32,768 nt of DNA from Candidatus Pacearchaeota archaeon (GTDB taxonomy: Archaea; Nanobdellota; Nanobdellia; Pacearchaeales; GW2011-AR1): NCBI GenBank assembly GCA_018304105.1, contig JAGVWX010000001.1, forward strand, positions 1 through 32,768. The letters run 5' to 3'. This document shows positions 5,484 to 29,954 of this stretch, in pieces (position 1 is the stretch's first letter; each line of letters starts with the position of its first letter). Made by a program: the position numbers and the translations under genes. The notes under the pieces were generated by a model. It was not told where the DNA came from and did no database searches. It saw nothing but the letters and a program-made list of their open reading frames with translations.

Positions 5484-7037
5484 ATGAAAAACAAAACAGA
5501 ACTCAAAACAAATAAAAATCTTAAATTAATTGCCAAATCTTCCGGAGTAGTTTTTATAGGATTATTTTTATCAAAGGTGTTCACATATCTCTATAGGATT
5601 ATAATTGCCAGAAATTTTGGCTCAGAAGTTTACGGCCTTTTTTCATTAGCTTTTACGATTAGCAGTATTTTTGTTGCAATTGCGTTGCTCGGTTTTGCCG
5701 ATGGTCTGGTAAGATATATCGCCTTATACCGTGGAAAAAATGAAAATGAAAAAATCAAGTATGTGTTCAGGTTTGTTCTTTCAATTAGCCTAATCGCTGG
5801 TTTCTTCCTTAGCCTTATTCTTTTTCTTGGTTCGGATTTTATCTCCGTTAACATATTTCATAATTCCGAGTTGGCAATTTTCTTGAAAATATTCAGCGCA
5901 GCCGTCTTTTTGATGGTCGTTTTCGGAGTGTTCTTTTCAGTATTGCGGGCATTTGAAAAAATATTTTGGTACTCTCTTATCACCAATATTTCCCAAAACT
6001 TCTTGAAAATACTCTTCTTATTGCTCCTGATATTTATTGGACTGAACTCTAACGCTGTAAGTCTCTCTTATGTATTAAGTATCCTCGGAGCATTAATCTT
6101 TTCGTATATCATATGTAAATATCAGATACCTTGGATTTTTAAAAAGTCTACTCTTGTCAAGGGAAAGAAAAACGAAATAAGGGGAGAACTTATGAAATAT
6201 TCTTTACCTATTATGTTTTTGGGAATCTTTTCTTTTCTATTCAACAATTTGGATTCACTCGCTTTAGGGTTTTTCAAAAACGCTTCTGAAGTCGGGATAT
6301 ATAACACGGCAATAATTATCGTTTCAATGGTGTGGTTCACCCAAGAATTGTTTATGCAGCTATTTCTGCCCCTCGTAACAAAAGAATTTTCACGGGGCAA
6401 TCTTGTATTAGTAAAAGAAATAAGCAAACAAGTCGGAAAATGGATATTTGCAATTAATCTGCCCATAAGCATAATAGTTATACTCTTTCCCAATGCAGTC
6501 ATAAACATTCTATTTGGCAGCCAGTTTATAGCCGCAGGCAATGCCTTAAGAATATTGGGAATTGGGCAGCTTATCTTCAGTTTGGGCAGCCTTTCAACAA
6601 ATTTAATTTTAATAACCGGAAGATCCAAATTGGTTTTAATCAATCTCATAGCAATCGCCCTCGTCAATTTTATTTTGGAGATAATTTTGGTGCCGGGATA
6701 TGGGCTTATCGGGGCGGCTCTTGCCGCGACAATTTCAATGTCCCTCTTAAGTTTGATTTTATTAATAGAAGTCAAATATCTTCTTTCTATGACTCCCCTT
6801 AGAAGAAAAATGGGGCAGATGCTTCTAGTTTCTATAATTCCCGCCCTGGGTCTTTTTTATCTAAGGAAAATAATAATTCTTACCCCCCTAAATATGGGCT
6901 TGTTGGTATTGATGTTTTTCTTGGTTTATTTCATTCTTCTATTCTTGACCAGATGTTTTGATAAAAATGATCTTTTAATAATAAAGGGTATTAAGAAAAG
7001 AATAATCAATTTATCGCATTCTCAACTTTCTGACTAA
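5484..7037 (+). CDS. Wzx-like oligosaccharide flippase (MATE/MOP superfamily)
   Basis: A 517-residue membrane protein with about 12-14 hydrophobic segments, starting with the typical SSGVVFIGLFLSKVFTYLYR segment and continuing with ARNFGSEVYGLFSLA. These are the hallmark N-terminal features of polysaccharide flippases (Polysacc_synt family). It should move lipid-linked oligosaccharides from the cytoplasmic to the outer face of the membrane, feeding surface polymer or protein glycosylation. The C-terminal part (PGYGLIGAALAATISMSLLS) is also typical. Its last 27 bp overlap the convergent GT2 gene at 7011-7811. It is the only flippase in the window and so is the probable exporter for the glycan built by the surrounding glycosyltransferases. 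Confidence 0.9.
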   Translation: MKNKTELKTNKNLKLIAKSSGVVFIGLFLSKVFTYLYRIIIARNFGSEVYGLFSLAFTISSIFVAIALLGFADGLVRYIALYRGKNENEKIKYVFRFVLSISLIAGFFLSLILFLGSDFISVNIFHNSELAIFLKIFSAAVFLMVVFGVFFSVLRAFEKIFWYSLITNISQNFLKILFLLLLIFIGLNSNAVSLSYVLSILGALIFSYIICKYQIPWIFKKSTLVKGKKNEIRGELMKYSLPIMFLGIFSFLFNNLDSLALGFFKNASEVGIYNTAIIIVSMVWFTQELFMQLFLPLVTKEFSRGNLVLVKEISKQVGKWIFAINLPISIIVILFPNAVINILFGSQFIAAGNALRILGIGQLIFSLGSLSTNLILITGRSKLVLINLIAIALVNFILEIILVPGYGLIGAALAATISMSLLSLILLIEVKYLLSMTPLRRKMGQMLLVSIIPALGLFYLRKIIILTPLNMGLLVLMFFLVYFILLFLTRCFDKNDLLIIKGIKKRIINLSHSQLSD

Positions 7038-7811
7038 TCTTTTTATTTTCTTAAGTGGTTTAACAATTAAAAAAATTGCTGCAGAATCGAATATTTTCCA
7101 CATCTTCTCTGGAATCGAGAGCACTTTTTTTAGAGAGCCCCAATTTTCATCATTTGCTTTATACGAAAAATTAAGAAGGGATTTTATCATATTGACATAG
7201 GTCTCCGCGCCAAAAGACTCTTCGTGATACTGATGATACATCTTCAAAGTAGAAGGCATCCAATATTGTTTAACTCCTATTCTTTTCATTCTATTAACCA
7301 AATCTCCGTCTTCATATCCATAACCAGTCATCCTTTCATCAAATCCTCTGACTTTAAACCAATTTTTCCTGTCTGAACCCTGAAAGCATCCAGGGAATGG
7401 TCCGGGCAGGTGAGATTTTATTTTCTTTTCTTTTGTTATTTCTTTCCTGGGGATTTGATACAGAACGCTCTCTTTTCTCTTATCAAAATCATCATAAACT
7501 TTTTCTAAAACATCTTTGCTAAGAATTATGTCTCCGTCCATGCAGATTATCAATCTTCCCATGGCCCTTCTTATGCCTATATTTCGCGCTCTTGGAAGAT
7601 TCCAAATCCCTCGTTCGTCAACGTAAATATATCTTATCCTTTCATCTCTAAAGTTTTCAAGCATTTTTCTAGAATCGTCACTTCCCCCATAGTCAACAAC
7701 CACAATTTCAAAGTCTTTCTTATCAAAACTCTGTTTAAGGAGAGATTTCACCGCCCCATAAAGATTTTCTTTTCTATTTCTTACAGGGATTATCACACTG
7801 ATCTTTTTCAT
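7011..7811 (-). CDS. GT2 family glycosyltransferase
   Basis: A 266-residue cytosolic GT-A enzyme. The N-terminus KKISVIIPVRNRKENLYGAV, D40 in VVVDYGGSDDS, the metal-binding DGD (residues 92-94, ICMDGDIIL) and the C-terminal GYGYEDGDLVNRM acceptor motif are all in order. The last motif is like that of the galactosyltransferase/chondroitin polymerase branch of GT2. Donor and acceptor sugars cannot be told from sequence. A TATATAAT-like box at 7833-7840 lies about 26 nt before the ATG. The gene is convergent with the flippase and overlaps it by 27 bp. Confidence 0.9.
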   Translation of the reverse strand: MKKISVIIPVRNRKENLYGAVKSLLKQSFDKKDFEIVVVDYGGSDDSRKMLENFRDERIRYIYVDERGIWNLPRARNIGIRRAMGRLIICMDGDIILSKDVLEKVYDDFDKRKESVLYQIPRKEITKEKKIKSHLPGPFPGCFQGSDRKNWFKVRGFDERMTGYGYEDGDLVNRMKRIGVKQYWMPSTLKMYHQYHEESFGAETYVNMIKSLLNFSYKANDENWGSLKKVLSIPEKMWKIFDSAAIFLIVKPLKKIKRLVRKLRMR

Positions 7812-7948: not shown

Positions 7949-8281
7949 ATGATTGAAGGTATAGGCGTCGATATTGAAGAAATCCAGCGTTTTAAAACAA
8001 AGAAAATTGAAAAGTTCTTGAATTCCGTATTTACTAAAAGGGAAATAGCCTATTGCGAAAATAAGAAAGATCCTTCTATGAGCTTAGCCGGCAAATTTTG
8101 CGCCAAAGAAGCGGTAATCAAGGCTTCAAAAAAAGCATTATCACCAAGAGAAATTGAGATTTTAAATAAAAAAGATGGTAAAGTAAAGGTCTACATTAGT
8201 GGATCTTACAAAAAAAACATATTATGTAGCATCTCTCACACAAAGAGAAACGCGATAGCATTCGTTATAATCTCGGCTTAG
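7949..8281 (+). CDS. acpS: Holo-[acyl-carrier-protein] synthase (AcpS-type PPTase)
   Basis: The enzyme transfers 4'-phosphopantetheine from CoA to the serine of an acyl carrier protein. Family motifs are complete: GIGVDIEEIQRF (Mg-binding D), FTKREIAYC, LAGKFCAKEAVIKA (the F-x-A-KEA core), and the C-terminal SISHTKRNAIAF. The ATG at 7949 gives 110 residues and puts MIEGIGVDI at the N-terminus, as in the family; an earlier in-frame start would add about 22 unrelated residues. It is slightly short compared with the usual 120-126. It converges with the SDR gene (2 nt between stop codons), and an ACP gene lies about 1.2 kb away, its obvious substrate. AcpS is unusual in archaea, so acquisition from bacteria is likely (inference). 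Confidence 0.9.
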   Translation: MIEGIGVDIEEIQRFKTKKIEKFLNSVFTKREIAYCENKKDPSMSLAGKFCAKEAVIKASKKALSPREIEILNKKDGKVKVYISGSYKKNILCSISHTKRNAIAFVIISA

Positions 8282-8283
8282 TG

Positions 8284-9021
8284 CTACGAGAACTTACTTC
8301 CACCGTTAACTAAGATGTTTACACCATTCAAATAATTTGATTCTTCTGAATCCAAAAAAGATATTATGTTCGCAACATCCGTCGGAGTAGCGATTCTCTT
8401 AAGGGGATTTGATTGCGCAGTCATTTCTATCAGCTTTGGAGGTAAATTCGAAACCAACCCTGTTTCTACCATTCCCGGAGAAACCATATTGAAAGTGTAT
8501 TTATTAGCATCAAGCTCTGCGGCAAGAGATTTAACAAATCCCATCAGGCCATATTTAGCAGCAACATAATGAGAAATATTCGAAGGCGGCTTTCCGAAAC
8601 AATACTCCGTTAGGAGAATTATGAATTTAACCCTCTCTTTTTGATTTGAATTTTTTAAAATCAGTCTAACTAACGTGAAGAACGCTTTAATCTGAATGTC
8701 TATATGCTCTTGAAAATCTTTCCATTCCAAATTTTCTATTCGACCATTTTTAATCGGCGCTGAAACCGAATAAACAACCGAATTAATTGATTTGTGTTCA
8801 TTTAAAATAGACAAAATATTTTTCTCTATTGACTCTTCGTCAAACAAATTTACATTATAAAAGCCGCATTTATCTGGGGAAAACGCTCTTAGTTCTGATT
8901 TGAGCTTCTCCATGTTTTTGTTGCCCCATACGCATACACGGTTTCCTTTAGCCAATAGTTTTTTAGCAGATTCGAGTCCAATCCCCCCACTGCCTCCAAC
9001 GATTACAGATACTTTATCCAT
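8284..9021 (-). CDS. SDR family oxidoreductase (FabG-like)
   Basis: A 245-residue Rossmann protein of the short-chain dehydrogenase family, most like 3-oxoacyl-ACP reductases. Visible parts are the NAD(P) loop GGSGGIGLESAKKLL, the catalytic YVAAK (Y-x3-K), the following SPGMVETG turn, and the C-terminal NYLNGVNILVNGG. The usual NNAG is SVSA here. The serine normally 13 residues before the catalytic Tyr is Glu (ILLTEYCFGK), with Thr next to it, so catalysis may differ. The ATG at 9021 is used; it overlaps the MaoC stop (9014-9016) by 8 nt, showing translational coupling. It is the last gene of the fkbH-ACP-maoC-SDR operon and probably acts on an ACP-bound acyl group. Confidence 0.85.
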   Translation of the reverse strand: MDKVSVIVGGSGGIGLESAKKLLAKGNRVCVWGNKNMEKLKSELRAFSPDKCGFYNVNLFDEESIEKNILSILNEHKSINSVVYSVSAPIKNGRIENLEWKDFQEHIDIQIKAFFTLVRLILKNSNQKERVKFIILLTEYCFGKPPSNISHYVAAKYGLMGFVKSLAAELDANKYTFNMVSPGMVETGLVSNLPPKLIEMTAQSNPLKRIATPTDVANIISFLDSEESNYLNGVNILVNGGSKFS

Positions 9022-9445
9022 CTTTGTCTCCAATTATCCTGACCTTTGCAACACCCTCGACCTTTATAGATTTATTTGAGATTATCTCAGTTTTTATTAC
9101 TAAAAGGTTTATTCCATCTATCTTGCTCAAAATTTCTCCTCGTATTACCAATTCTTCACCAGCATATATGGGTTCTCTAAAGTTCAGGTTTTGGCTCAAG
9201 TAGAGATTATTTTTTCCAGGACAGACCATGCCCACTAAAGTAGAAAACAAACTTCCAGCAAGCATGCCATAAACCACTCTGTCCTTAAATCCTTTTTTCT
9301 TCGCAAACTCAACATCGCAATGAAGCGGATTGTAATCCCCCACAATTTTCGCAAAACTATCTAAATCCTCATTGGTAATTACTTTTTTGAATTCAAAACG
9401 CATTCCTTGGTACGTCTCATCGTATTCATAATTATTTATTTTCAT
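9014..9445 (-). CDS. MaoC-like (R)-specific acyl hydratase/dehydratase
   Basis: A 143-residue hot-dog-fold protein. The hydratase-2 motif FAKIVGDYNPLHCD, with the catalytic pair D37 and H42 at the same spacing as in PhaJ-type enzymes, is followed by the usual FKDRVVYGMLAGSLFS. It would hydrate or dehydrate a 2-enoyl/3-hydroxyacyl thioester, here probably bound to the ACP encoded just upstream. Its ATG overlaps the ACP stop codon (ATGA at 9442-9445), and its own stop overlaps the SDR start, so the three proteins are made together. Substrate chain length cannot be inferred from sequence. Confidence 0.88.
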   Translation of the reverse strand: MKINNYEYDETYQGMRFEFKKVITNEDLDSFAKIVGDYNPLHCDVEFAKKKGFKDRVVYGMLAGSLFSTLVGMVCPGKNNLYLSQNLNFREPIYAGEELVIRGEILSKIDGINLLVIKTEIISNKSIKVEGVAKVRIIGDKDG

Positions 9446-9687
9446 ATAACCAAAAACTTCTCTTCGACATTCAGTCTCCTCAATGTCTCGACAATATCTT
9501 TAACTGTTTCGATAGTCATAATATCACTTGAAGAAAGCTTAACATTAAAATTTGATTCTATCTCCGAGATAATCATAAAACTATTGAACGAATCCCATGA
9601 AGAGAGGTTTTTTGGCGACGAGGCTAGCTCAATCTCTCCTTCTTTTACGGCAAGCGTTTTTGCAACAATCTTTTTCAGAGTTTCCAT
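9442..9687 (-). CDS. Acyl carrier protein
   Basis: An 81-residue carrier protein. The phosphopantetheine site is S33 in the motif SSWDSFNSFMIISEIES, with the WDSF form common in stand-alone carriers of surface-glycan and secondary-metabolite clusters instead of the DSL of fatty-acid ACP. Helix III, SSSDIMTIETVKDIVETL, fits the fold. Its ATG directly follows the fkbH stop codon (TAA-ATG), and its TGA overlaps the maoC ATG. Holo-ACP would be made by the AcpS encoded nearby. ACP genes are uncommon in archaea, making this gene a marker for the module. Confidence 0.88.
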   Translation of the reverse strand: METLKKIVAKTLAVKEGEIELASSPKNLSSWDSFNSFMIISEIESNFNVKLSSSDIMTIETVKDIVETLRRLNVEEKFLVI

Positions 9688-11376
9688 TTAGACATCCCTG
9701 CAATAGTATTTAGTTGAATTATCTTCGCGAATCAAATTAAAACCTGCAGCTTCTAGAAAATCTTTAGCCGGAGGATTTTTGGGCGTCGGTATAAAAGTTG
9801 CATTTATTTTGCGTATTTTCTCTTCTTTAGCGTTCTCAAGTATTTTTTGCATAAGGGTATATTCAATTTTTTTCCCGAGTATCCTACAGCTTAGTAGAAA
9901 TGAATCTATTTCCCACTCATCAGAGTCTTTTAATTTTTTAACTATCACAACGCCAGTCATACCATAATCTCCAAAATTATCTTTTACTCTTAAAAATTTA
10001 ACCTTGAAATCTTTAGAACTAACGAATTTTTCAATATCTTCTTCTTGATATCTTTTTGTTGTAAGATTAAACTGATTCGTTTTCTGAGTTAATTGAGAGA
10101 TTCGTGATACATCTGTCTTGCTTGCGTCTCCTATCTCCAATTGTATTTTTAATTTCGCTAAAAAGGAATCCAAATCGGTATTAGCCAATTTCAACTGTTC
10201 TCTTTTTCTTTGGTCTATATACATCTTACCGCGCTCAAAATCTTCTTTTGTTGAAACCAACTTACTAAAAAATTTCAGCCCTTCCAAACACGTCACATAG
10301 TCGACAGGGTCTCTTGGCAGGTCAATAACAGTTACTTCAGGAAGAAATTCTTTAATTAACTCCCCATTTGACTGGTCATCATCAATAAATACCATGCTGT
10401 CTAATCCAATATTAAGCTCCTCTGCAATTTCGCGCATGTTCGATACCTTATCCTGCCAGTTTATTTTCATACAAGCAAAGTTGTTCTCTTTTAGCACCAT
10501 GTGCCTATGATTTTTAATTACATTCATAGCATCCTCAGTATTATTTTTGCTGTTAATTGCAAGAATAATTCCTCTATTGAATAGCTCAGCTAACTTTTTT
10601 TGAAAATCTAAAAATGGCTTACCTTCCCTTTCAGGACCCAGCCGTATCCCATCTATTCCAACTTCCCCTACAATTCCCCCCCACAGCGTGTTATCCAGGT
10701 CTAAGACTATACACTTTTTAGTTTTGGAAGCTACCGGAATAACATACTCTAAATACTCTTTAGAAAGCTCCTTTAATGCTGGAATAGAAATTTTCATATC
10801 TGCTAAATAATCGACTCTTTTGTCTACTAACTGTTGATACCCTATTTTCATACAAAAACTGTTTAAATCAAAAACAAATAACCTGTTGCTTGCTAAGAAA
10901 AATTTTCTCAATTCATAATTAAATTTATTTACTAACTCCCTTGCGCCATCCTTTTGCTTATTCTCCAGTATTCCAAAACTTGAATATATCGGAAGAAGTA
11001 TCTCATTGATAACAATTTTCGCAGAGGTTTTACTCTCTAAAATATTCAAGAGCTCTTTTAATTCATTTAATCTATCTGCGAAAATTTTCCTTCTAGTTTG
11101 AACCTTCTGAGTGTATGGGTTAGAATATACATCTCCAAACAATTTTTCTCCATCAAGAAGCAGGAAAATCAGATTTGGTGAAAACCCATACAGCTTGCTA
11201 GAGTTATCAATTATCTCCTGCGCATATTGCCCATAAGGAGCCATATACACTTCAGCAAAAATTCCCACATCTTCACACGTCTTCTTCATTATACTAGAAA
11301 GAGGTTCAATGGTAAAATTGGAAAGAAAACCTAATCTGACACTTTCAGCTTCTTTATTAGCGTTTTTTTCTGCCAT
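9688..11376 (-). CDS. FkbH-like HAD-IIIC family protein
   Basis: A 562-residue protein with the three-part layout of FkbH-like enzymes: an N-terminal SGNH-like region (about 1-190), a HAD-IIIC domain (from CIVLDLDNTLWGG, D226 and D228, to VFIDDDQSNGELI), and a C-terminal GNAT-like part ending with IPTPKNPPAKDFLEAAGF. In polyketide systems FkbH proteins load a glyceryl group from 1,3-bisphosphoglycerate onto an ACP; relatives occur in surface-polysaccharide clusters. The ACP gene directly follows. The ATG at 11376 is chosen over the GTG at 11388 because GGTGG (11385-11389) lies 8 nt upstream as a ribosome site. A TATTTAAA-like box is near 11414-11420. Which acyl group is loaded is not known. 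Confidence 0.87.
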   Translation of the reverse strand: MAEKNANKEAESVRLGFLSNFTIEPLSSIMKKTCEDVGIFAEVYMAPYGQYAQEIIDNSSKLYGFSPNLIFLLLDGEKLFGDVYSNPYTQKVQTRRKIFADRLNELKELLNILESKTSAKIVINEILLPIYSSFGILENKQKDGARELVNKFNYELRKFFLASNRLFVFDLNSFCMKIGYQQLVDKRVDYLADMKISIPALKELSKEYLEYVIPVASKTKKCIVLDLDNTLWGGIVGEVGIDGIRLGPEREGKPFLDFQKKLAELFNRGIILAINSKNNTEDAMNVIKNHRHMVLKENNFACMKINWQDKVSNMREIAEELNIGLDSMVFIDDDQSNGELIKEFLPEVTVIDLPRDPVDYVTCLEGLKFFSKLVSTKEDFERGKMYIDQRKREQLKLANTDLDSFLAKLKIQLEIGDASKTDVSRISQLTQKTNQFNLTTKRYQEEDIEKFVSSKDFKVKFLRVKDNFGDYGMTGVVIVKKLKDSDEWEIDSFLLSCRILGKKIEYTLMQKILENAKEEKIRKINATFIPTPKNPPAKDFLEAAGFNLIREDNSTKYYCRDV

Positions 11377-11384
11377 CTTACTCG

Positions 11385-11389
11385 CCACC
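11385..11389 (-). promoter_or_regulatory. Ribosome binding site for the fkbH-like gene
   Basis: GGTGG on the minus strand, 8 nt before the ATG at 11376. It is one of few clear Shine-Dalgarno sites here and decides the start, since the in-frame GTG at 11388 lies inside it. Confidence 0.5.
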
Positions 11390-11413
11390 TTAATTGAATC
11401 AAATTATAGCGTT

Positions 11414-11420
11414 ATTTAAA
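11414..11420 (-). promoter_or_regulatory. TATA-like box of the ACP operon
   Basis: TTTAAATAA on the minus strand would place the transcript start near 11390, giving a short leader that carries the GGTGG site. It drives fkbH-ACP-maoC-SDR. Confidence 0.45.
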
Positions 11421-11450
11421 CATTTTCAATATCTTGCGAGATTAGACCAA

Positions 11451-11460
11451 TATTTAAATA
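11451..11460 (+). promoter_or_regulatory. TATA-like box for the LbH acyltransferase
   Basis: TATTTAAATA is centred about 27 nt before the ATG at 11483. With the divergent box at 11414-11420 it makes a compact two-way promoter region between the ACP operon and the acyltransferase. Confidence 0.5.
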
Positions 11461-11482
11461 ATTATCTGATTTAACGAGCGTA

Positions 11483-11998
11483 ATGATTCAAACAGAAATA
11501 TATCAGCTAATTGCGTTTTTGTTAAGAAATATCGGAGGCAGTTTAGGAATTGCATTGAGAAATAGCTTTTATAGATTTGCCGGAGCAAAAATAGGAAAAA
11601 ATGTTATTATTCGCGAAAATGTGATTATTTATCGTCCCTATAATTTAGAATTAAAAGACGGTGCTGAAATTGGATTTGGGACAGTGATAAGCGCCGTAGA
11701 AAAAATTAGGCTTGGAAAAGAAGCAGCAATAGGCCCATACTGCGCGATTTACGATAACAATCATAAAATGCCCAAAGTCTCGGGCGATGGCGGTTTAATA
11801 ACAAAGCCCGTAGAGATAAAAGATTTTGCCTGGGTTGGAACACATTCTATAATTCTAAAAGGCGTAACAATAGGTAGTAATGCTACGGTTGGCGCGGGCA
11901 GCGTTGTTATGACCGACGTGCCGGATAACTCGGTAGTAGTTGGCAATCCGGCAAGAATAATAAAACAGAATGCCCCGAAAAAGGAAGATGTTAAATAA
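11483..11998 (+). CDS. Left-handed beta-helix (hexapeptide) acyltransferase
   Basis: A 171-residue trimeric-type acyltransferase of the maltose/galactoside O-acetyltransferase group. Hexapeptide repeats run through the middle (AKIGKNVIIRENVIIY, GAEIGFGTVIS, EAAIGPYCAIY, GVTIGSNATVGAGSVV), and the catalytic His is H94 in DNNHKMP. The C-terminal VVVGNPARII is standard. It would acylate a sugar hydroxyl or amine; acetyl-CoA is the usual donor, but the divergent neighbouring ACP operon makes an acyl-ACP donor possible (inference). The downstream GT9 gene overlaps its end, so they are co-transcribed. A TATA-like box at 11451-11460 precedes the ATG. Confidence 0.88.
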   Translation: MIQTEIYQLIAFLLRNIGGSLGIALRNSFYRFAGAKIGKNVIIRENVIIYRPYNLELKDGAEIGFGTVISAVEKIRLGKEAAIGPYCAIYDNNHKMPKVSGDGGLITKPVEIKDFAWVGTHSIILKGVTIGSNATVGAGSVVMTDVPDNSVVVGNPARIIKQNAPKKEDVK

Positions 11999-12992
11999 AA
12001 AACTTGGCGAAGTAAAAAAGATACTGGCCATTCGAAATGATAAAATAGGGGATTTAGTCTTATCAAGCAAGGTAGTAGAACTTTTGAAAAGAAAATTCCC
12101 GTACGCAAAAATAGATTTGATAGTGTCGAAAGCAAATAAGCATCTGATTGAAGAAAATCCTTTAATTAATAAGTTTTATGTATTAGATTATTCTCCCCGC
12201 ACCCCTCGTGATTTTCTAAATTATTTTAAATTGTCGAAAAAAATTAAAAAAGAACGCTACGACCTAGGTGTAGAAATAAGGGGCAGTTTGTTCAATATCT
12301 TTTTTTTCCTTTTTCTAGGAGGAGTGAAATATAAGATGGGGTTTTATACAAATAACCTCTCGAAGCTTTTCTTAGACTATGCCCATTTAAAAGATTACAA
12401 AGGGCACGCGACGCAGAATATGGTGAAGATGGTCAATGGCGGGTTAGGAACTGATTTTGCAGACTCCTGGCCCAAAATTTTCACAAGTAAAAATGATGCG
12501 GTCGAAGTTAAAAAATTCCTTAAACAAAATAACCTATCAAAATTTGTCTCCCTTTGCATTGATGCGAGCAGTGAGGAAAAGCAATGGTCCTTGGACAATT
12601 TTGATAAAGTCATAAAACACATCCATAAAAAATATCCTTCCTGCAAGATTGTTTTAATTGGAATAGACAATACAAAAATGAAATTTCTTGCTGAGAGAAA
12701 TTCTTTCTGCATCCAAGCATTAAATAAAAATCTAAGGCTTTTATATCTCTTATTCGGTAGGAGCGCTCTTGTTATCGGTCCGGATGGCGGCACAATGCAT
12801 CTAGCATGGGTTTCGAAAACTAATACTATAACCCTCATCCCAGCTTACTTAGCAAATTACTTGGAAGATATAAAACCACTAGGAAAAAATGCAAAATCGA
12901 TACTTAAAAAATTAGAAGACATCAAAACGGAAGAAGTAACTCAATTAGTAAATCAAGTATTATCTAAACAACATGCAAAATCAGGAAACTAA
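11988..12992 (+). CDS. GT9 (heptosyltransferase-like) glycosyltransferase
   Basis: A 334-residue GT-B enzyme of the GT9 (ADP-heptose:LPS heptosyltransferase-like) family. The N-terminus KILAIRNDKIGDLVLSSKVV shows the typical Arg/Asp-rich GDxxLs loop. The C-terminal donor site ALVIGPDGGTMHLAWVSKTN, with its conserved GGTMHLA, is also clear. Family members use NDP-heptose or related sugars; the true donor is unknown. The ATG at 11988 overlaps the acyltransferase by 11 nt; an ATG at 11970 would add six residues (MPRKRK). The end overlaps the convergent FkbM gene by 4 bp. A second GT9 gene lies at 27365-28348. Confidence 0.88.
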   Translation: MLNKKLGEVKKILAIRNDKIGDLVLSSKVVELLKRKFPYAKIDLIVSKANKHLIEENPLINKFYVLDYSPRTPRDFLNYFKLSKKIKKERYDLGVEIRGSLFNIFFFLFLGGVKYKMGFYTNNLSKLFLDYAHLKDYKGHATQNMVKMVNGGLGTDFADSWPKIFTSKNDAVEVKKFLKQNNLSKFVSLCIDASSEEKQWSLDNFDKVIKHIHKKYPSCKIVLIGIDNTKMKFLAERNSFCIQALNKNLRLLYLLFGRSALVIGPDGGTMHLAWVSKTNTITLIPAYLANYLEDIKPLGKNAKSILKKLEDIKTEEVTQLVNQVLSKQHAKSGN

Positions 12993-15837: not shown

Positions 15838-17220
15838 ATGATTAAGGCAGTGATTTTTGATTTGGACGGTGTCCTAGTAGATGCAAGAGAGATTCACTAC
15901 ACAGCATTAAATAACGCACTTGCATTATTTAATTATCAGATTAATCGCGACGAGCATCTCTCGACTTATGACGGACTCTCAACGAAAAGAAAATTGGAGA
16001 TGTTGACAGAACGCAATGGTCTGCCAGTTGAGTTATACGAGGATATTTGGAAGGCGAAACAGAAGGAAACAATAAACGTGATAGGCACTTTAGATCCGGA
16101 TGAGAGAATAAAGGGAGTTTTGAGACAATTAAGAGATGAGGGATATAAGATTGCAGTTTGTTCAAATTCAATCAGAGAATCTACTAAGATGATGCTTCTC
16201 AAACGCGGGTTTTTAGAATTTATAGAATTCTTTTTGTCGAATCAAGACGTAGTTGCCCCCAAACCATCTCCTGAGATGTATCTGCGAGCAATGATTCAAT
16301 TAAATGTTAAACCAAAAGAGTGCCTCATAGTTGAAGATTCTCATATCGGCAGACAAGCAGCGATTGACTCTGGAGCACACTTGTGCGGTGTTGAAAATTC
16401 TTCAGACGTTACATATGAAAGAATCAAAGGAGCAATAGACGAAGCAGCTTCATTAAACAAAAACAATCATCAAAAAATAAAATGGCAGGACAAAAAAATG
16501 AATGTATTAATACCTATGGCTGGTGAAGGAACCAGTTTTAAAAACGCCGGTTACACTTTTCCCAAACCACTAATAGATGTATACGGCAAGCCCATGATCC
16601 AGCTGGTTGTAGAAAATTTAAACACAGAAGGCAATTTTATTTTTCTAGTAAAGAAAGAGCATTATGATAAATATAGCCTGCATCATCTACTGAACCTTAT
16701 ATCTCCAGGATGCAAAATAGTTTTAGTAAAAAATCCTACCGCCGGAGCAGCGGCAACAGCACTCTTGGCTAAGGAATTTATCAATAACAAAGATTCATTG
16801 TTAATAGCGAATGCGGATCAATTTATTGAATGGAACAGTAATGAATTCTTTTACGCGATGGCCGCAGACGAATGCGACGGGGGAGTATTAACTTTTAATT
16901 CAACTCATCCAAGATGGAGTTATGTTCGACTAGGAGAAAATGGTTTTATTTCCGAAGCTGCTGAAAAAAAGGTTATCAGTGATATTGCAACCGTCGGATT
17001 GTATTATTATAAAAAAGGCTCAGATTTTATAAAATACGCCGAGCAGATGATTCAAAAAAATTTAAGTTTCAACGGAGATTTTTATATCTGCCCAATCTTC
17101 AATGAGATGATTGCCGATGGAAAAAAAGTCAGGCCCTTTAAGGTTAATAAAATGTGGGGATTAGGCACCCCAGAAGAACTAAATATTTTTCTCACAGTCA
17201 ATAAATCAAACAATCAATAA
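15838..17220 (+). CDS. HAD hydrolase/phosphomutase - nucleotidyltransferase fusion
   Basis: A 460-residue two-domain enzyme. Residues 1-215 form a HAD domain like beta-phosphoglucomutase: DLDGVLVDAREIHYTAL (nucleophile D8, acid/base D10), VCSNS (motif II), APKPSPEMY (Lys motif III) and IVEDSHIGRQAA (motif IV). From about residue 221 (MNVLIPMAGEGTSF) begins a sugar nucleotidyltransferase with FPKPLIDVYGKPMI, similar to the gene at 15030. One chain could turn a sugar phosphate into its 1-phosphate, or remove a phosphate, and then activate it. The loop MAGEGTS lacks the usual Arg. M221 could start a separate nucleotidyltransferase product, but the frame is open throughout. An AAATAC-type box lies about 26 nt before the ATG. 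Confidence 0.85.
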   Translation: MIKAVIFDLDGVLVDAREIHYTALNNALALFNYQINRDEHLSTYDGLSTKRKLEMLTERNGLPVELYEDIWKAKQKETINVIGTLDPDERIKGVLRQLRDEGYKIAVCSNSIRESTKMMLLKRGFLEFIEFFLSNQDVVAPKPSPEMYLRAMIQLNVKPKECLIVEDSHIGRQAAIDSGAHLCGVENSSDVTYERIKGAIDEAASLNKNNHQKIKWQDKKMNVLIPMAGEGTSFKNAGYTFPKPLIDVYGKPMIQLVVENLNTEGNFIFLVKKEHYDKYSLHHLLNLISPGCKIVLVKNPTAGAAATALLAKEFINNKDSLLIANADQFIEWNSNEFFYAMAADECDGGVLTFNSTHPRWSYVRLGENGFISEAAEKKVISDIATVGLYYYKKGSDFIKYAEQMIQKNLSFNGDFYICPIFNEMIADGKKVRPFKVNKMWGLGTPEELNIFLTVNKSNNQ

Positions 17221-21135: not shown

Positions 21136-21741
21136 ATGAAAAAGTCAAGAAAAGAAAAAGGATTTCTAAACAAGTTAAATATTGGTTGTGGACAAAAAAA
21201 ATTGGATGGTTTTATAAATATAGATAAAAATTCAGAATTTAATCCGGATATATGCATGGACGCCAGTCAGATTTCCAATTATAAACGATTTGGAGAGAAC
21301 ACAATTTCAGAGATTCGATCAGAACATTTTTTAGAACACACAGAGAATCCGGAAGAAATCATGAAAGAATGGCATCGTATCCTAAGCACCGGCGGGATAC
21401 TAAAAATCAAGCTTCCTCATTTTAGCAGAGGATTCACAAATCCAGATCATAAAAGGGGATTTGACCTAAGTTGGCCGCTCCATTTTAAAAAAGAAAACTC
21501 CTATTCTACATATGCAGGCGTGGAATACGAAGTAGAAAAAATGAAAATGACTTGGATAGCATTTTTAAAGCATTATCCGGCCGGACCTTTAACAAAGAAA
21601 TTCTTATCTTTGATAAATACAATAATAAACTTTTTTGCTTCTCTTTCACCTTACTTTTGCAGCAGAATTTGGTGTTTTTGGGTTGGAGGATTCGAAGAAA
21701 TGGAAATATGGTTTAAGAAAAAATTACCCGGTCATAGCTAA
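21136..21741 (+). CDS. SAM-dependent methyltransferase (Methyltransf_11 type)
   Basis: A 201-residue methyltransferase. KLNIGCGQKKLDGFINID is the SAM loop with the acidic residue at the end of strand 2, ISEIRSEHFLEHTENPEEI is the motif before strand 4, and ILSTGGILKIKLPHFSRG is the post-motif strand. The C-terminal tail has a hydrophobic part (SLINTIINFFASLSPYF) that might associate with membrane. The ATG at 21136 is chosen because of the TATA-like box at 21108-21116; an ATG at 21115 would add seven residues. The GT2 gene follows one nucleotide after the stop, so both are one operon. It probably methylates a sugar or lipid-linked glycan. Confidence 0.82.
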   Translation: MKKSRKEKGFLNKLNIGCGQKKLDGFINIDKNSEFNPDICMDASQISNYKRFGENTISEIRSEHFLEHTENPEEIMKEWHRILSTGGILKIKLPHFSRGFTNPDHKRGFDLSWPLHFKKENSYSTYAGVEYEVEKMKMTWIAFLKHYPAGPLTKKFLSLINTIINFFASLSPYFCSRIWCFWVGGFEEMEIWFKKKLPGHS

Positions 21742-22532: not shown

Positions 22533-23186
22533 ATGAGAATAAAACTTAGAAGCGATGCCCCGTACCTCAAGTTGCCTCTAGAAAAGATTAATGCACTGCC
22601 CAAAAACAAAACCTATAAATTACTTGATGTCGGAGCAGGACCAAAACATCTTAAATCTTTTCTTCCGAAAAATGTAAGATACCATAGCCTTGACTATGGA
22701 GGAGTTCATGATTATCTAATTGATTTGGACAAATCAAAGATACCTGTTAAATCTGGCACATATGATATCATCGTCTGCTTTGAAACGTTAGAACACACCC
22801 TATACCCCAAGAAAGTTCTTGCGGAACTTTTAAGAATCGCGAAAAAAGATGCAATCTTCTTTTTATCAATGCCCAACGAGTACAACTTCTACTGCAGGCT
22901 AAATTTTTTATTTGAAAGAAAAACATTTATCCAAGAGCCTTTTGAAATCGCAGAAAAACACCTGCACATTCACTACCCTCGAGTCAAGGATATCATTGTG
23001 CTGTTCTCAAAATATTTCAAGATTTTGAAAGTAGACTATAACTGGTACTCACGAACAGGATCCAACAGTAAAAGCTTCCGGGGAAAATTATCTTTATTCA
23101 TGGATAAAATAATAAATTCTTTAATCATTTTATCTCCCAGCTTGTTTGCTAGAAACGTTATGGTCTACGGAGTCAAGAAACAATGA
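22533..23186 (+). CDS. SAM-dependent methyltransferase (Methyltransf_11 type)
   Basis: A 217-residue methyltransferase. KLLDVGAGPKHLKSFLP is the SAM loop, SLDYGGVHDYLIDLDKS the following acidic strand, and TYDIIVCFETLEHTLYPKKV the typical pre-strand-4 motif. LLRIAKKDAIFFLSMPNE is the last core strand. The C-terminal half (about 110-217) contains His-rich and aromatic parts for substrate binding. It begins a three-gene operon: the deacetylase starts inside its stop (ATGA), and GT4 overlaps the deacetylase end. A TATA-like box at 22504-22511 precedes it. The substrate is probably a sugar of the local glycan (inference). Confidence 0.83.
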   Translation: MRIKLRSDAPYLKLPLEKINALPKNKTYKLLDVGAGPKHLKSFLPKNVRYHSLDYGGVHDYLIDLDKSKIPVKSGTYDIIVCFETLEHTLYPKKVLAELLRIAKKDAIFFLSMPNEYNFYCRLNFLFERKTFIQEPFEIAEKHLHIHYPRVKDIIVLFSKYFKILKVDYNWYSRTGSNSKSFRGKLSLFMDKIINSLIILSPSLFARNVMVYGVKKQ

Positions 23187-23977
23187 AAATTTGTATAAGC
23201 ATGGATGTTGAACAAGACCTGCACTCAGGAGATTACAAAAGCTTGGAATATGGCCTTCCAGAGTTTTTTAAAATTCTAGATAAAAGGGGAATCAAATCCA
23301 CCTTGTTTGTTCCAGCTAAATTGTTAGAGAAATTTCCAGAGAAATTTAAACAATTGGAAAAAAGAGGACACGAAATAGCACTGCACGGATTAGAACATGA
23401 ACGATTTGATGACCTGGCTTTCTCAGAGAAGAAAAGAAGAATAAAAGAGGCAGTAAAAATTTATAAAAAAGTATTAAAGCATCCGCCTAGTGGATTCAGG
23501 GCACCCCAACACTCCATAGACCGCAGCACTCTCGAGATTTTGGCAGAGAACGGTTTTCATTACGATTCTTCCCATACTCCATTTAATCTTCTGCAACTAC
23601 TTTTTTTCCCAAAGAGAATAAAACATGGTCTGGTAGGTTTCTTTAAGCCGAGAAGTGCATATAAACTAAAAGAGGGGATACACGAGTTCCCAATTTCTTC
23701 ATCTGGAATTTCATTCGTTTCTTTGCCACTAAGAATATTTCCTAAAATAATAATAAAATTTTACTTAAGCACTCTGAAAGCCACGCACAAGAATCTTGTT
23801 TTTTACTGTCATTCTTGGGATTTAATTCCCTTAAAAGATAGTAAAATTGATAGAACTTTTCCTCATACAAGGTTTATAGACCATCTAGATTATTTAGTAA
23901 ATAATTTAACTAAGAAAGATTACTTTATCACCTTGAAAGATTTAACAAAGGAGTTAGATAAAAATGAACATACTTGA
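23183..23977 (+). CDS. Polysaccharide deacetylase (NodB/CE4-like)
   Basis: A 264-residue NodB-homology protein that would remove N- or O-acetyl groups from a sugar. Visible motifs are ISMDVEQDLHSGDY (catalytic base D8), the metal-binding pair H68 and H72 in IALHGLEHERFDDL, PSGFRAPQHSIDRSTLEILAE (motif 3), and LVFYCHSWDL (C-terminal His motif). There is no signal peptide, so it would act in the cytoplasm on a nucleotide- or lipid-linked sugar, as in many glycan-building loci. It overlaps the methyltransferase by 4 bp upstream and the GT4 gene by 14 bp downstream. Confidence 0.88.
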   Translation: MKICISMDVEQDLHSGDYKSLEYGLPEFFKILDKRGIKSTLFVPAKLLEKFPEKFKQLEKRGHEIALHGLEHERFDDLAFSEKKRRIKEAVKIYKKVLKHPPSGFRAPQHSIDRSTLEILAENGFHYDSSHTPFNLLQLLFFPKRIKHGLVGFFKPRSAYKLKEGIHEFPISSSGISFVSLPLRIFPKIIIKFYLSTLKATHKNLVFYCHSWDLIPLKDSKIDRTFPHTRFIDHLDYLVNNLTKKDYFITLKDLTKELDKNEHT

Positions 23978-27364: not shown

Positions 27365-28348
27365 ATGAAAATAGTTATGATAAAACTAGGGGCATTGGGC
27401 GATGTGATTAGGACGCTTCCTCTAGCCGCAGCAATAAAAAAGAACTTTCCTCAATCAGAACTGACATGGATTACAAAAGCAGATTCATCAGAACTGATTA
27501 AAACAGACAGCCATGTCGACAAAGTTCTTACGTCAAAGCCAGAAGGAGAATTCGACATTTTATACAATTTCGACATAGACAAAGAAGCTACTTCTTTAGC
27601 TTCAGGGATAAAGGCAAAACAAAAAAAGGGATTCTATTTAGACGGCGGCTACGCTGCAGCTTTTAACCTCGGGGCGGAATATTATCTCAACACTTTGTTC
27701 GATGACGAACTGAAAAAATCAAACAAAAAAACATATCAGGAAATGATGTTCGATGTTGCAGAGATTCCCTACACAAAAGAAATATACAAGATAAATCTCG
27801 CTCCCGAAGAAAAGATTTTAGGAAAAAACTTTTTAGAAAAGAATAATCCTTTAAAAAAGAAGATAATAGGATTGCATATCGGTGCTTCGTCAAGGTGGCC
27901 TTCAAAAGCCTGGCACGAAGACAGAATTGTAGAATTTATAAAAAAAATTAAAGAGTCAGGAAATGAAGTGATTATTTTCGCAGGGCCAAACGAAATTGAA
28001 AAAAGAGGCAGCATTCTTGAAAAACTCGAACAGGAAGGAGTAAACGTTTTAATGAATAATCCCAATAACACCATGCGGGAGTTTGCAGCATTGCTCGACG
28101 TTTGCGATGAAGTAGTTTGTTCAGACAGTCTGGCTCTTCATGTCTCTTTAGGGCTCGGAAAGAAAACCATCGCGCTTTTCTTTTGCACATCTCCTGATGA
28201 AGTCGAACCTTATCATCTTTTGACTAAAATAGTCTCTCCAAGAATAAAGGAGTTTTTCCCTGAGAAAATGGATCAGTACGACGAAGACTTAGTCAAAAGC
28301 ATCTCTTCTTTCGACGTCCTAAAAAATATAGCTAATTCTCGGCTATAG
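27365..28348 (+). CDS. GT9 (heptosyltransferase-like) glycosyltransferase
   Basis: A 327-residue GT-B enzyme of the GT9 family. MKIVMIKLGALGDVIRTLPL is the typical N-terminal GDV loop. IGLHIGASSRWPSKAWHED and EVVCSDSLALHVSLGLGKK are the classical nucleotide-sugar binding segments, the second being the variant of the S-D-S-x2-L-H motif. Such enzymes add heptose or other sugars to a glycan core. It resembles but is not a close copy of the GT9 at 11988-12992. The PMT-like membrane protein begins 34 nt after it and may be in the same transcript. Confidence 0.9.
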   Translation: MKIVMIKLGALGDVIRTLPLAAAIKKNFPQSELTWITKADSSELIKTDSHVDKVLTSKPEGEFDILYNFDIDKEATSLASGIKAKQKKGFYLDGGYAAAFNLGAEYYLNTLFDDELKKSNKKTYQEMMFDVAEIPYTKEIYKINLAPEEKILGKNFLEKNNPLKKKIIGLHIGASSRWPSKAWHEDRIVEFIKKIKESGNEVIIFAGPNEIEKRGSILEKLEQEGVNVLMNNPNNTMREFAALLDVCDEVVCSDSLALHVSLGLGKKTIALFFCTSPDEVEPYHLLTKIVSPRIKEFFPEKMDQYDEDLVKSISSFDVLKNIANSRL

Positions 28349-28382: not shown

Positions 28383-29954
28383 ATGGAAAACAAAAGAGAT
28401 GGGTTGAGCAAAAGAAAGAAAAATTTAGTTAACTGGTTCAAAAGTCCAACAAATCTTTTGTTCCTAGCAATCTTGATTTTAGCATTCGGAATTAGATTAT
28501 ATTACTTTTCATTAACGATGAACCAACCGCTCTGGTGGGATGAAGCAGAGTACATGTCTACTGCAAAAGGTTTTGCAGGAATTACCGAGAATACATACAG
28601 CGTATCACTCAATCGTCTTCCCGGCTTTCCTTTTCTTGTTTCTTTGTTTTACACTGTGGGAATAGGGGATGAAGCAGTTCTCAGATTTTTTCTGTCTCTT
28701 ATACCCTCGCTCATAGTAATTATCTTGATGTATTTTGTATTAATATCCTTATATTCAGATAAAAAAATCGCTTTAATTTCTACAGCAATTTTTACAGTTT
28801 TGTGGGAGCATGTTTTTTATAGCAATAGATTTCACACAGAAAATTTATCCTTAATTTTTGAACTTTTAGCTATTTTCGTTCTTTTCAGGGTCTATCTAAA
28901 AAATCAAGACTTTTATTTTATTAAAAGCAGGCACGCCTTTCTCTGGATAGCCCTATTCTCAGTTATTTGCATTTTGTTCAGATCTGCAAACATGGTTTTC
29001 ATTCCAGTTATGATTTTTTTCTTAATAGCTGTTAATTTCTACAGAATCCCTAAGAAATTCAAGGCGCTCTCTGCGATAAGTCTTGCAATCGTCATTATAA
29101 TCGGGTTTAGCATGATGGTCTTTTTATCTCATAAATTCGAGTTTGTCCATCAATTTTATCGTTATGATTTTTCATTGCCTTGGAGCACCCTTTCAGTCTT
29201 TTATGGATTTTATCAGTCATTAGTTCCTTTTATCCCTTCAATTCTATTTTATGTTTTCATTTTGGGAGTTGCCACAGTTTTAGGGGGAATCATCATTTTT
29301 CCAGAAGGATTAAGAAGGCTAAACAAAAATGTCGATGACAACTCTTACAAAGCAGATGTCTTTAATCTCATCCTCATTGCAGGGTTTCTATTCTTCTTTT
29401 TATTTATGTTGAGACCATCCGCCTTTGAATATAGGTGGTTTTTTGCTTTTCTCCCGGGGATGCTTGCATTTACAGCAAGAGGACTAACAAGAATCGGAGA
29501 CTTTCTAAAGACTCTGCTAAATAGTCGTCAGCTTGCTTATATTGTAATTATCATTTTATTAGTATTTGGACTATACACCCAGTTGCAGCATTCCGATATG
29601 ATAGTTAAAGATAAACTAAAGTCTTATCAAGAGGTCAAAGATTCCGGTTTATGGATTAAGGAAAGAACTTCTCCAAATGATATCGTAATAAGTTCTTCCC
29701 AAACCCAGCTCGCATATTACAGCGAGAGAAAGATATACAATCTAAATAATTTTGATTCAGAAGAGAATTTCACAAAATTTGTAATGGACAATAAGCCAAA
29801 ATATCTGGTTTTGTCCGTATTCGAGCCTCATCCTTCTTGGTCTTATGATTGGCCCCAGAAAAATAATGAATCCGCAACCCCTGTTCAAGCTTACTTTGCT
29901 GATGAAGCGAGAACAAAGCCAGTATTGGTAATTTATCAGATAAACTCTGCCTAA
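28383..29954 (+). CDS. PMT/GT39-like membrane glycosyltransferase
   Basis: A 523-residue membrane protein with a cytosolic N-terminus and about 10-11 hydrophobic segments. The first outer loop holds NQPLWWDEAEYMSTAKGF with the acidic DE pair of GT-C enzymes (PMT_2 family). FEYRWFFAFLPGMLAFTARG is the second typical region. The C-terminal ~120 residues are soluble and outer-facing. It should transfer a sugar from a polyprenyl-phosphate donor, such as that made by the GT2 at 21743, to an outward-facing glycan or protein. It is complete, unlike the frameshifted GT-C at 18752. Confidence 0.87.
   Translation: MENKRDGLSKRKKNLVNWFKSPTNLLFLAILILAFGIRLYYFSLTMNQPLWWDEAEYMSTAKGFAGITENTYSVSLNRLPGFPFLVSLFYTVGIGDEAVLRFFLSLIPSLIVIILMYFVLISLYSDKKIALISTAIFTVLWEHVFYSNRFHTENLSLIFELLAIFVLFRVYLKNQDFYFIKSRHAFLWIALFSVICILFRSANMVFIPVMIFFLIAVNFYRIPKKFKALSAISLAIVIIIGFSMMVFLSHKFEFVHQFYRYDFSLPWSTLSVFYGFYQSLVPFIPSILFYVFILGVATVLGGIIIFPEGLRRLNKNVDDNSYKADVFNLILIAGFLFFFLFMLRPSAFEYRWFFAFLPGMLAFTARGLTRIGDFLKTLLNSRQLAYIVIIILLVFGLYTQLQHSDMIVKDKLKSYQEVKDSGLWIKERTSPNDIVISSSQTQLAYYSERKIYNLNNFDSEENFTKFVMDNKPKYLVLSVFEPHPSWSYDWPQKNNESATPVQAYFADEARTKPVLVIYQINSA

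Follow-up and report, generated by a model that had tools for sequence, protein, structure and literature searches.

In the glyceryl-ACP modules of tetronate and methoxymalonyl polyketide pathways (FkbH, Mad7 and Mad14 type), an FkbH-family loader adjoins a discrete acyl carrier protein (ACP), and FkbH forms glyceryl-ACP from 1,3-bisphosphoglycerate (1,3-BPG) (PMC7489565). A metabolic-modelling paper has FkbH loading modules yield D-lactate-ACP and treats them as leading from 1,3-BPG to a lactyl thioester via dehydration and ketoreduction (PMC7901079). Archaea have been described as lacking ACP chemistry save for a few transferred genes, which were discussed as fatty acid synthesis (PMC3533463). 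Here we analysed the first 32,768 nt of contig JAGVWX010000001.1 from a Candidatus Pacearchaeota archaeon (assembly GCA_018304105.1), hereafter the window. Within 4 kb of it lie genes for a holo-ACP synthase (AcpS), an ACP, an FkbH-type protein, a MaoC-family dehydratase, an SDR reductase and a hexapeptide acyltransferase (LbH). We propose that this module carries out ACP-dependent acylation of a glycan fed from central metabolism, in which 1,3-BPG would give glyceryl-ACP, then lactyl-ACP and finally an acylated sugar, and we give this reading a probability of roughly 0.45.

The six genes (Table 1) had been named in a first-pass annotation made from the sequence alone, and all of them were found in place and passed curated family models. 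The junctions were also as it had claimed. The TAA of FkbH directly abuts the ATG of ACP, ACP and MaoC share an ATGA, and MaoC and SDR overlap by 8 nt when the SDR is started at ATG 9021 (20 nt from the upstream TTG). FkbH comprises FkbH_N, a HAD core with the motif DLDNTLWGG and a C-terminal domain with an SCR motif, and has a solved structural relative (3slr). The spacer between the divergent LbH and FkbH genes is, judged from its letters, a possible bidirectional promoter. Single copies of AcpS and of ACP were found in the host genome (1.06 Mb in 23 contigs, 89% complete), whose small-subunit rRNA is archaeal. Because these are the sole copies found, and because the set recurs in two dozen archaeal genomes, the grouping of the genes goes beyond chance.

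The first relative of the module came from a scan of genome contigs, in which the sole match was archaeal: a Marine Group I thaumarchaeote with contiguous FkbH, ACP, MaoC and AcpS genes and a divergent LbH. Searches were performed on 250 relatives of this thaumarchaeote and on 371 genomes of the window's phylum. Strong FkbH homologues were detected in ~18 of the former and ~7 of the latter (the window's own genome counted), mostly at 40-52% identity over 540 or more residues, with L068 and L069 at 30-31%. Gene maps were made for 24 archaeal loci from these two groups (25 with the window). The first-pass annotation had held that homologues always found alone would speak against a module; instead, partners accompany FkbH in the 24 loci. 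FkbH and ACP were present in all 24, with abutting or overlapping genes in most (the ACPs of L065 and L068 were read from 83- and 99-residue neighbours with a DSF or DSL motif). AcpS was located within ~2 kb in 23 loci, the exception being L069, and MaoC was present in 20. An LbH of the same family was found in ~14 relatives, nearly always divergent from FkbH at short spacing. The SDR was detected in six relatives, or 7/25 loci with the window (L064, L070, L105 and L106, and fused to MaoC in L068 and L069), and three loci (L071, L074 and L077) carry FkbH, ACP, AcpS and LbH without MaoC or SDR.

AcpS itself was present in 24/250 thaumarchaeote relatives and in 29/371 genomes of the window's phylum. 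The earlier view of ACP systems as rare among archaea is therefore about right, although the rarity is not extreme. AcpS and FkbH co-occurred in both sets (Fisher p=3e-17, n=250; p=9e-7, n=371), kinship being uncorrected and inflating both values. Among relatives of the same genus, the module is patchy, since an FkbH-like match was found in G001 only and there without the module. The FkbH-like proteins of G001 and G122 (L006 and L004) were rejected as module members; they are of a different, fused kind, and the module is absent. Three loci show peculiarities of their own. In L106 (7834-10908), the FkbH and SDR genes are split over several frames in the assembly with their order intact. In L064 (8119-8736), a truncated 2-oxoacid dehydrogenase E2-type acyltransferase (PF00198) lies between SDR and AcpS, which recalls tetronate clusters; it is a possible alternative acyltransferase. 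In L081 (7932-8330), a glyoxalase/VOC-family protein occupies exactly the slot of MaoC, where inversion at the alpha carbon of the acid on the ACP is a possible role; a VOC gene is likewise present in L110, a bacterial FkbH locus.

The residues expected for carrier activation and loading are conserved. Glu54 and Lys58 of AcpS were found in 37/37 archaeal sequences and Asp8 in 36/37, and Trp31, Ser33 and Glu44 of ACP were invariant in 25/25. In FkbH, Asp230, Asp232, Lys314, Asp336, Asp337 and Cys501 were invariant in 23/23, a set that covers the HAD catalytic aspartates and the C-terminal SCR cysteine, whose catalytic role is assumed. In the proposed pathway, AcpS would phosphopantetheinylate the ACP at Ser33. 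FkbH would then take the glyceryl group of 1,3-BPG, its HAD domain stripping the phosphate, and load D-glyceryl onto the ACP. PGK, as a source of 1,3-BPG for FkbH, is encoded in the host genome. Loading onto the ACP and use of the product on a glycan are fairly well supported. In outline, a three-carbon acid drawn from sugar metabolism is probably bound to the carrier, modified there and passed on to a surface sugar.

A residual ACP-based fatty acid synthesis acquired from bacteria would be another use for such genes, and DPANN genomes are reported to contain FabG/FabZ/FabI-like genes (PMC10936187). However, an FkbH loader has no place in fatty acid synthesis. PF00109 was absent from the host genome (89% complete) and PF02801 from 23/23 carriers, with 10/10 bacterial controls positive. 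The first-pass statement that ketosynthase, malonyl transferase and enoyl reductase are lacking thus holds for the ketosynthase, which is absent from the host genome by two models; the other two were not searched genome-wide. As no beta-ketoacyl synthase was found in the 23 carrier genomes, type II fatty acid synthesis was rejected, and we regard it as the least probable of the readings considered here. The module is accordingly self-contained and distinct from fatty acid synthesis, as first proposed, a synthase elsewhere in the genome having been looked for and no ketosynthase found in the 23 carriers.

Scarcely more probable is a tetronate or other polyketide-type natural product pathway. 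FkbH-ACP pairs are classic in such pathways (PMC7489565, PMC4979870), and some of the bacterial plasmid matches belong to this type and have FabH-like and E2-like proteins (L015 and L018). The archaeal set differs in having its own AcpS, MaoC, SDR and LbH in a glycan island, where glycosyltransferases, flippases and nucleotide-sugar genes surround it, and in having no adjacent FabH/ketosynthase or FkbI-like dehydrogenase; 1,3-BPG is the presumed source in both. The polyketide reading was rejected because a condensing enzyme is absent from the window and, as ketosynthase, from the 23 carriers.

What the module does with the loaded glyceryl group is suggested by its two tailoring enzymes. Bryostatin-type loading is an FkbH lactyl loading, and lactyl-loading modules of this sort are domains of polyketide synthases, whereas the archaeal genes are separate, apart from the MaoC-SDR fusions, and are not followed by a polyketide synthase. 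In the window locus, a dehydratase and a ketoreductase are both associated with FkbH and keep their catalytic residues. Asp37 and His42 of the MaoC GDxNPxH motif were invariant in 18/18 sequences, and the module SDRs retain the Thr/Ser, Tyr and Lys active-site pattern. Since these are the enzymes needed to convert glyceryl to lactyl, we propose a lactyl-ACP route, in which MaoC would eliminate water from glyceryl-ACP to give 2-hydroxyacryloyl/pyruvoyl-ACP and the SDR with NAD(P)H would reduce this to lactyl-ACP. The two enzymes are also physically joined in some loci: MaoC-SDR is one 395-residue protein directly before FkbH in L069, and MaoC-MaoC-SDR is one 563-residue protein directly after FkbH in L068. 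On bacterial plasmids, FkbH has a MaoC-SDR fusion next to it or close by in both Maritalea (L019) and Niveispirillum (L014); FkbH, MaoC and SDR are neighbours in Rahnella (L112).

The same two enzymes resemble the MaoC/FabG-like pair of bacterial acyl-CoA operons, and 3-hydroxybutyrylated sugars occur in bacterial O-antigens. The product could then be (R)-3-hydroxybutyryl or another CoA-derived 3-hydroxyacyl group, formed by MaoC hydrating a crotonyl or by the SDR reducing an acetoacetyl thioester (of CoA or ACP), with FkbH making a second group. We consider this improbable, as there is no ketosynthase and, within the module, no thiolase, the FkbH and ACP genes are closely linked in most loci, and the MaoC-SDR fusions are directly beside FkbH.

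Several observations weigh against the lactyl route. A dehydratase and a reductase are not both present wherever the module occurs: MaoC is absent in three loci and replaced by the VOC protein in L081, the SDR is present in only 7/25, and most genomes with MaoC only hold just distant generic SDRs (~20-30% identity). The scarcity of the SDR makes lactyl an unlikely common product across the loci. MaoC dehydration of glyceryl-ACP was not found described in the literature examined. The best matches of LbH are WcaF-type acetyltransferase models, and LbH could be a mere acetyl-CoA-using neighbour. The deacetylase of the window is 11 kb from the module, and the acceptor glycan is putative. We infer every chemical step of the route, above all those of MaoC and SDR and the nature of the acceptor, from the observed gene content, linkage, residues and recurrence. 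Lactyl as the product is the least firm part, because most relatives have neither the SDR nor a close copy of it elsewhere. SDR-less relatives would stop at the pyruvoyl-type intermediate, employ another reductase or use MaoC differently, and the three loci without MaoC and SDR would transfer glyceryl itself.

These three loci, and the VOC protein of L081, also agree with the possibility that the final group is glyceryl in general, either unchanged or after epimerisation or oxidation, for instance to hydroxymalonyl. MaoC and SDR would then carry out other chemistry, for example oxidation of the primary alcohol by the SDR as in the FK520 extender route, and oxidation of glyceryl-ACP is a known fate in methoxymalonyl pathways (PMC7489565). 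However, MaoC is retained by 20 of the 24 relatives with both catalytic residues invariant, its fusion with SDR beside FkbH suggests a dehydrate-then-reduce pair, and inspection of the window genes showed no FkbI-like acyl-CoA dehydrogenase. We therefore judge a glyceryl-type product unlikely, if the most plausible of the alternatives to lactyl.

The proposed last step is the transfer of the acyl group by LbH to an amino or hydroxyl group of a surface-glycan sugar. In 12 loci, LbH has as its neighbour a polysaccharide deacetylase, of either of two kinds, that would expose the sugar amine, and the neighbourhood of L072 and L073 includes RmlB-like, FdtA-like ketoisomerase (L073) and DegT aminotransferase (L072) genes. 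LbH is linked to ACP-loading genes whichever loader is present: in L087 and L088, AcpS and ACP occur with an AMP-ligase replacing FkbH and adjoin the same LbH family. The terminal enzyme also varies, an MBOAT protein lying in one gene run with AcpS, ACP, FkbH and MaoC in L065 and after FkbH-ACP-MaoC-SDR-AcpS in L106. Loader and terminal enzyme thus look interchangeable. Together, the deacetylases, the nucleotide-sugar neighbours and the swappable loaders and acyltransferases point to a sugar, plausibly an amino sugar, as the destination of the acyl group. The first-pass suggestion of a short hydroxyacyl group placed on a sugar is supported as the most likely use. The sugar N-acyltransferases FdtC/QdtC and PglD/NeuD share the LbH fold and likewise recall the ketoisomerase and aminotransferase neighbours; they use acetyl-CoA, whereas an acyl-ACP donor is proposed for the module LbH.

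The Dlt system for D-alanylation (the AMP-ligase DltA, the carrier DltC, the MBOAT protein DltB, and DltD) is a further parallel, in that a carrier protein donates acyl groups to a surface polymer. It differs from the module in its loader, which is FkbH here, in its donor, proposed to be a 2-hydroxy acid rather than D-alanine, and in its terminal enzyme, which is usually LbH in the module. Among the archaeal loci, L087 looks Dlt-like in combining an AMP-ligase, an ACP, an SGNH-like protein and an MBOAT. Dlt-like archaeal sets of AcpS, ACP and AMP-ligase were observed at L087:5697-11949 (with LbH, SGNH-like protein and MBOAT), L088:6876-9511, L086:6708-8828 and L096:5511-8997 (with MBOAT), and look like a second ACP-based route of glycan acylation. 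A second ACP, an SDR (45% identical to that of L070) and an MBOAT, preceded by a DltD/SGNH-like protein, were observed at L117:5010-8732. This is another contig of G228, whose main FkbH module lacks an SDR, and the set may supply reductase and acyltransferase in trans. More tentatively than for the pathway itself, we suggest that two distant archaeal groups share a modular toolkit for ACP-based glycan acylation, with FkbH or AMP-ligase as loader, no tailoring or tailoring by MaoC, MaoC and SDR, or VOC, and LbH or MBOAT as acyltransferase. The window version would make lactyl-ACP de novo from 1,3-BPG and re-acylate deacetylated amino sugars.

Bacterial loci in which FkbH occurs with ACP or fused MaoC-SDR were found in Sinorhizobium (pSymB, L017), Rhodobacteraceae (L110), Tistrella (L114), Niveispirillum (L014) and Maritalea (L019), several of them with an O-acyltransferase and polysaccharide surroundings as in the archaeal module. 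Their FkbHs are only ~30% identical, however, and none of the plasmids examined has the exact six-gene set. The plasmid matches of MaoC that were inspected were rejected as module relatives, being CoA-type or polyhydroxyalkanoate loci without FkbH; ACP as a lone query gave no matches in plasmids, and a search of viral contigs gave none. A maximum-likelihood tree placed 21 archaeal FkbHs in a clade (100/98) apart from 13 sequences of bacteria or phage records, the bacterial sampling consisting of plasmid and phage records only. The window's FkbH and two more sequences from its phylum formed a group (100/99); the divergent archaeal L068 and L069 fell on long branches with unsure placement. The transfer from bacteria proposed in the first-pass annotation is not borne out: a recent or direct transfer is not supported, the nearest FkbH relatives in this sample being archaeal. 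The window's phylum is interleaved with relatives of the thaumarchaeote, which suggests, as far as the tree can tell, exchange among archaea.

The remaining genes of the window make it a surface-glycan island (Table 1). GT9 overlaps LbH, and the deacetylase is homologous to those beside LbH in relatives (50-72 bits); no DegT gene was identified in the window. At 15838-17220, a beta-phosphoglucomutase-like HAD phosphatase is fused with a nucleotidyltransferase; this fusion and the two GT9 proteins may serve an unusual sugar in the island's glycan. At 1226-2101, a stand-alone LAGLIDADG homing-endonuclease-like gene overlaps with its end the start of tRNA-Gly (2077-2150).

Table 1. Genes and other features of the window, with the module first.
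Feature	Position	Strand	Model match	Remark
AcpS, holo-ACP synthase (group I phosphopantetheinyl transferase)	7949..8281	+	PF01648 E=1.1e-18; TIGR00556 above cut-off
SDR, FabG-like reductase	8284..9021	-	PF13561 E=5.7e-36	alternative start TTG 9033
MaoC-family (R)-hydratase/dehydratase	9014..9445	-	PF01575 E=1.3e-15
ACP	9442..9687	-	PF00550 E=2.8e-7	Ser33 = pantetheine site
FkbH-type HAD-IIIC protein	9688..11388	-	TIGR01686 304.9 bits vs cut-off 146.65; PF21211	proposed glyceryl loader of ACP
LbH hexapeptide acyltransferase, WcaF-like	11483..11998	+	PF00132 E=2.6e-13; NF007797 104 bits	proposed terminal acyltransferase
Divergent LbH/FkbH intergenic region	11389..11482			94 bp; A/T-rich TATA-like stretches
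MOP/Wzx-type flippase	5484..7037	+	PF01943 E=1.3e-22	glycan island context
GT2 glycosyltransferase	7011..7811	-	PF00535 E=1.8e-27	glycan island context
GT9 glycosyltransferase	11970..12992	+	PF01075 E=3.4e-17	glycan island member
Polysaccharide deacetylase	23183..23977	+	PF01522 E=2.3e-18	candidate amine-exposing partner, not adjacent to module
Second GT2	at 21635
Second GT9	at 27365
GT4/GT1 genes	at 23964 and 30817
PMT-like protein	at 28383
Methyltransferases, FkbM-type and others
Nucleotidyltransferases (two)				one fused to HAD phosphatase
SecD/SecF and tRNA-Gly	left part of window

A search of the open-access literature gave no paper dealing with an archaeal FkbH or with FkbH in glycan loci of archaea. 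The first-pass suggestion that the combination may be undescribed stands in this respect, but the combination is not unique to the window, as it recurs in other archaea. With enzyme families that are all known and with relatives in bacteria, the module is a new archaeal variant of known chemistry rather than a new kind. For the archaeal ACP and AcpS genes of the two groups, it offers a different likely job, the synthesis of donors for glycan acylation where ketosynthase is absent. The function of archaeal ACPs becomes directly testable, a self-contained gene set is available for transfer to a laboratory host, and lactyl, glyceryl or pyruvyl substituents are predicted on the surface glycans of module-carrying thaumarchaea. 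If the proposal is true, the module would represent a route, as yet undescribed, by which an archaeal surface glycan is acylated.

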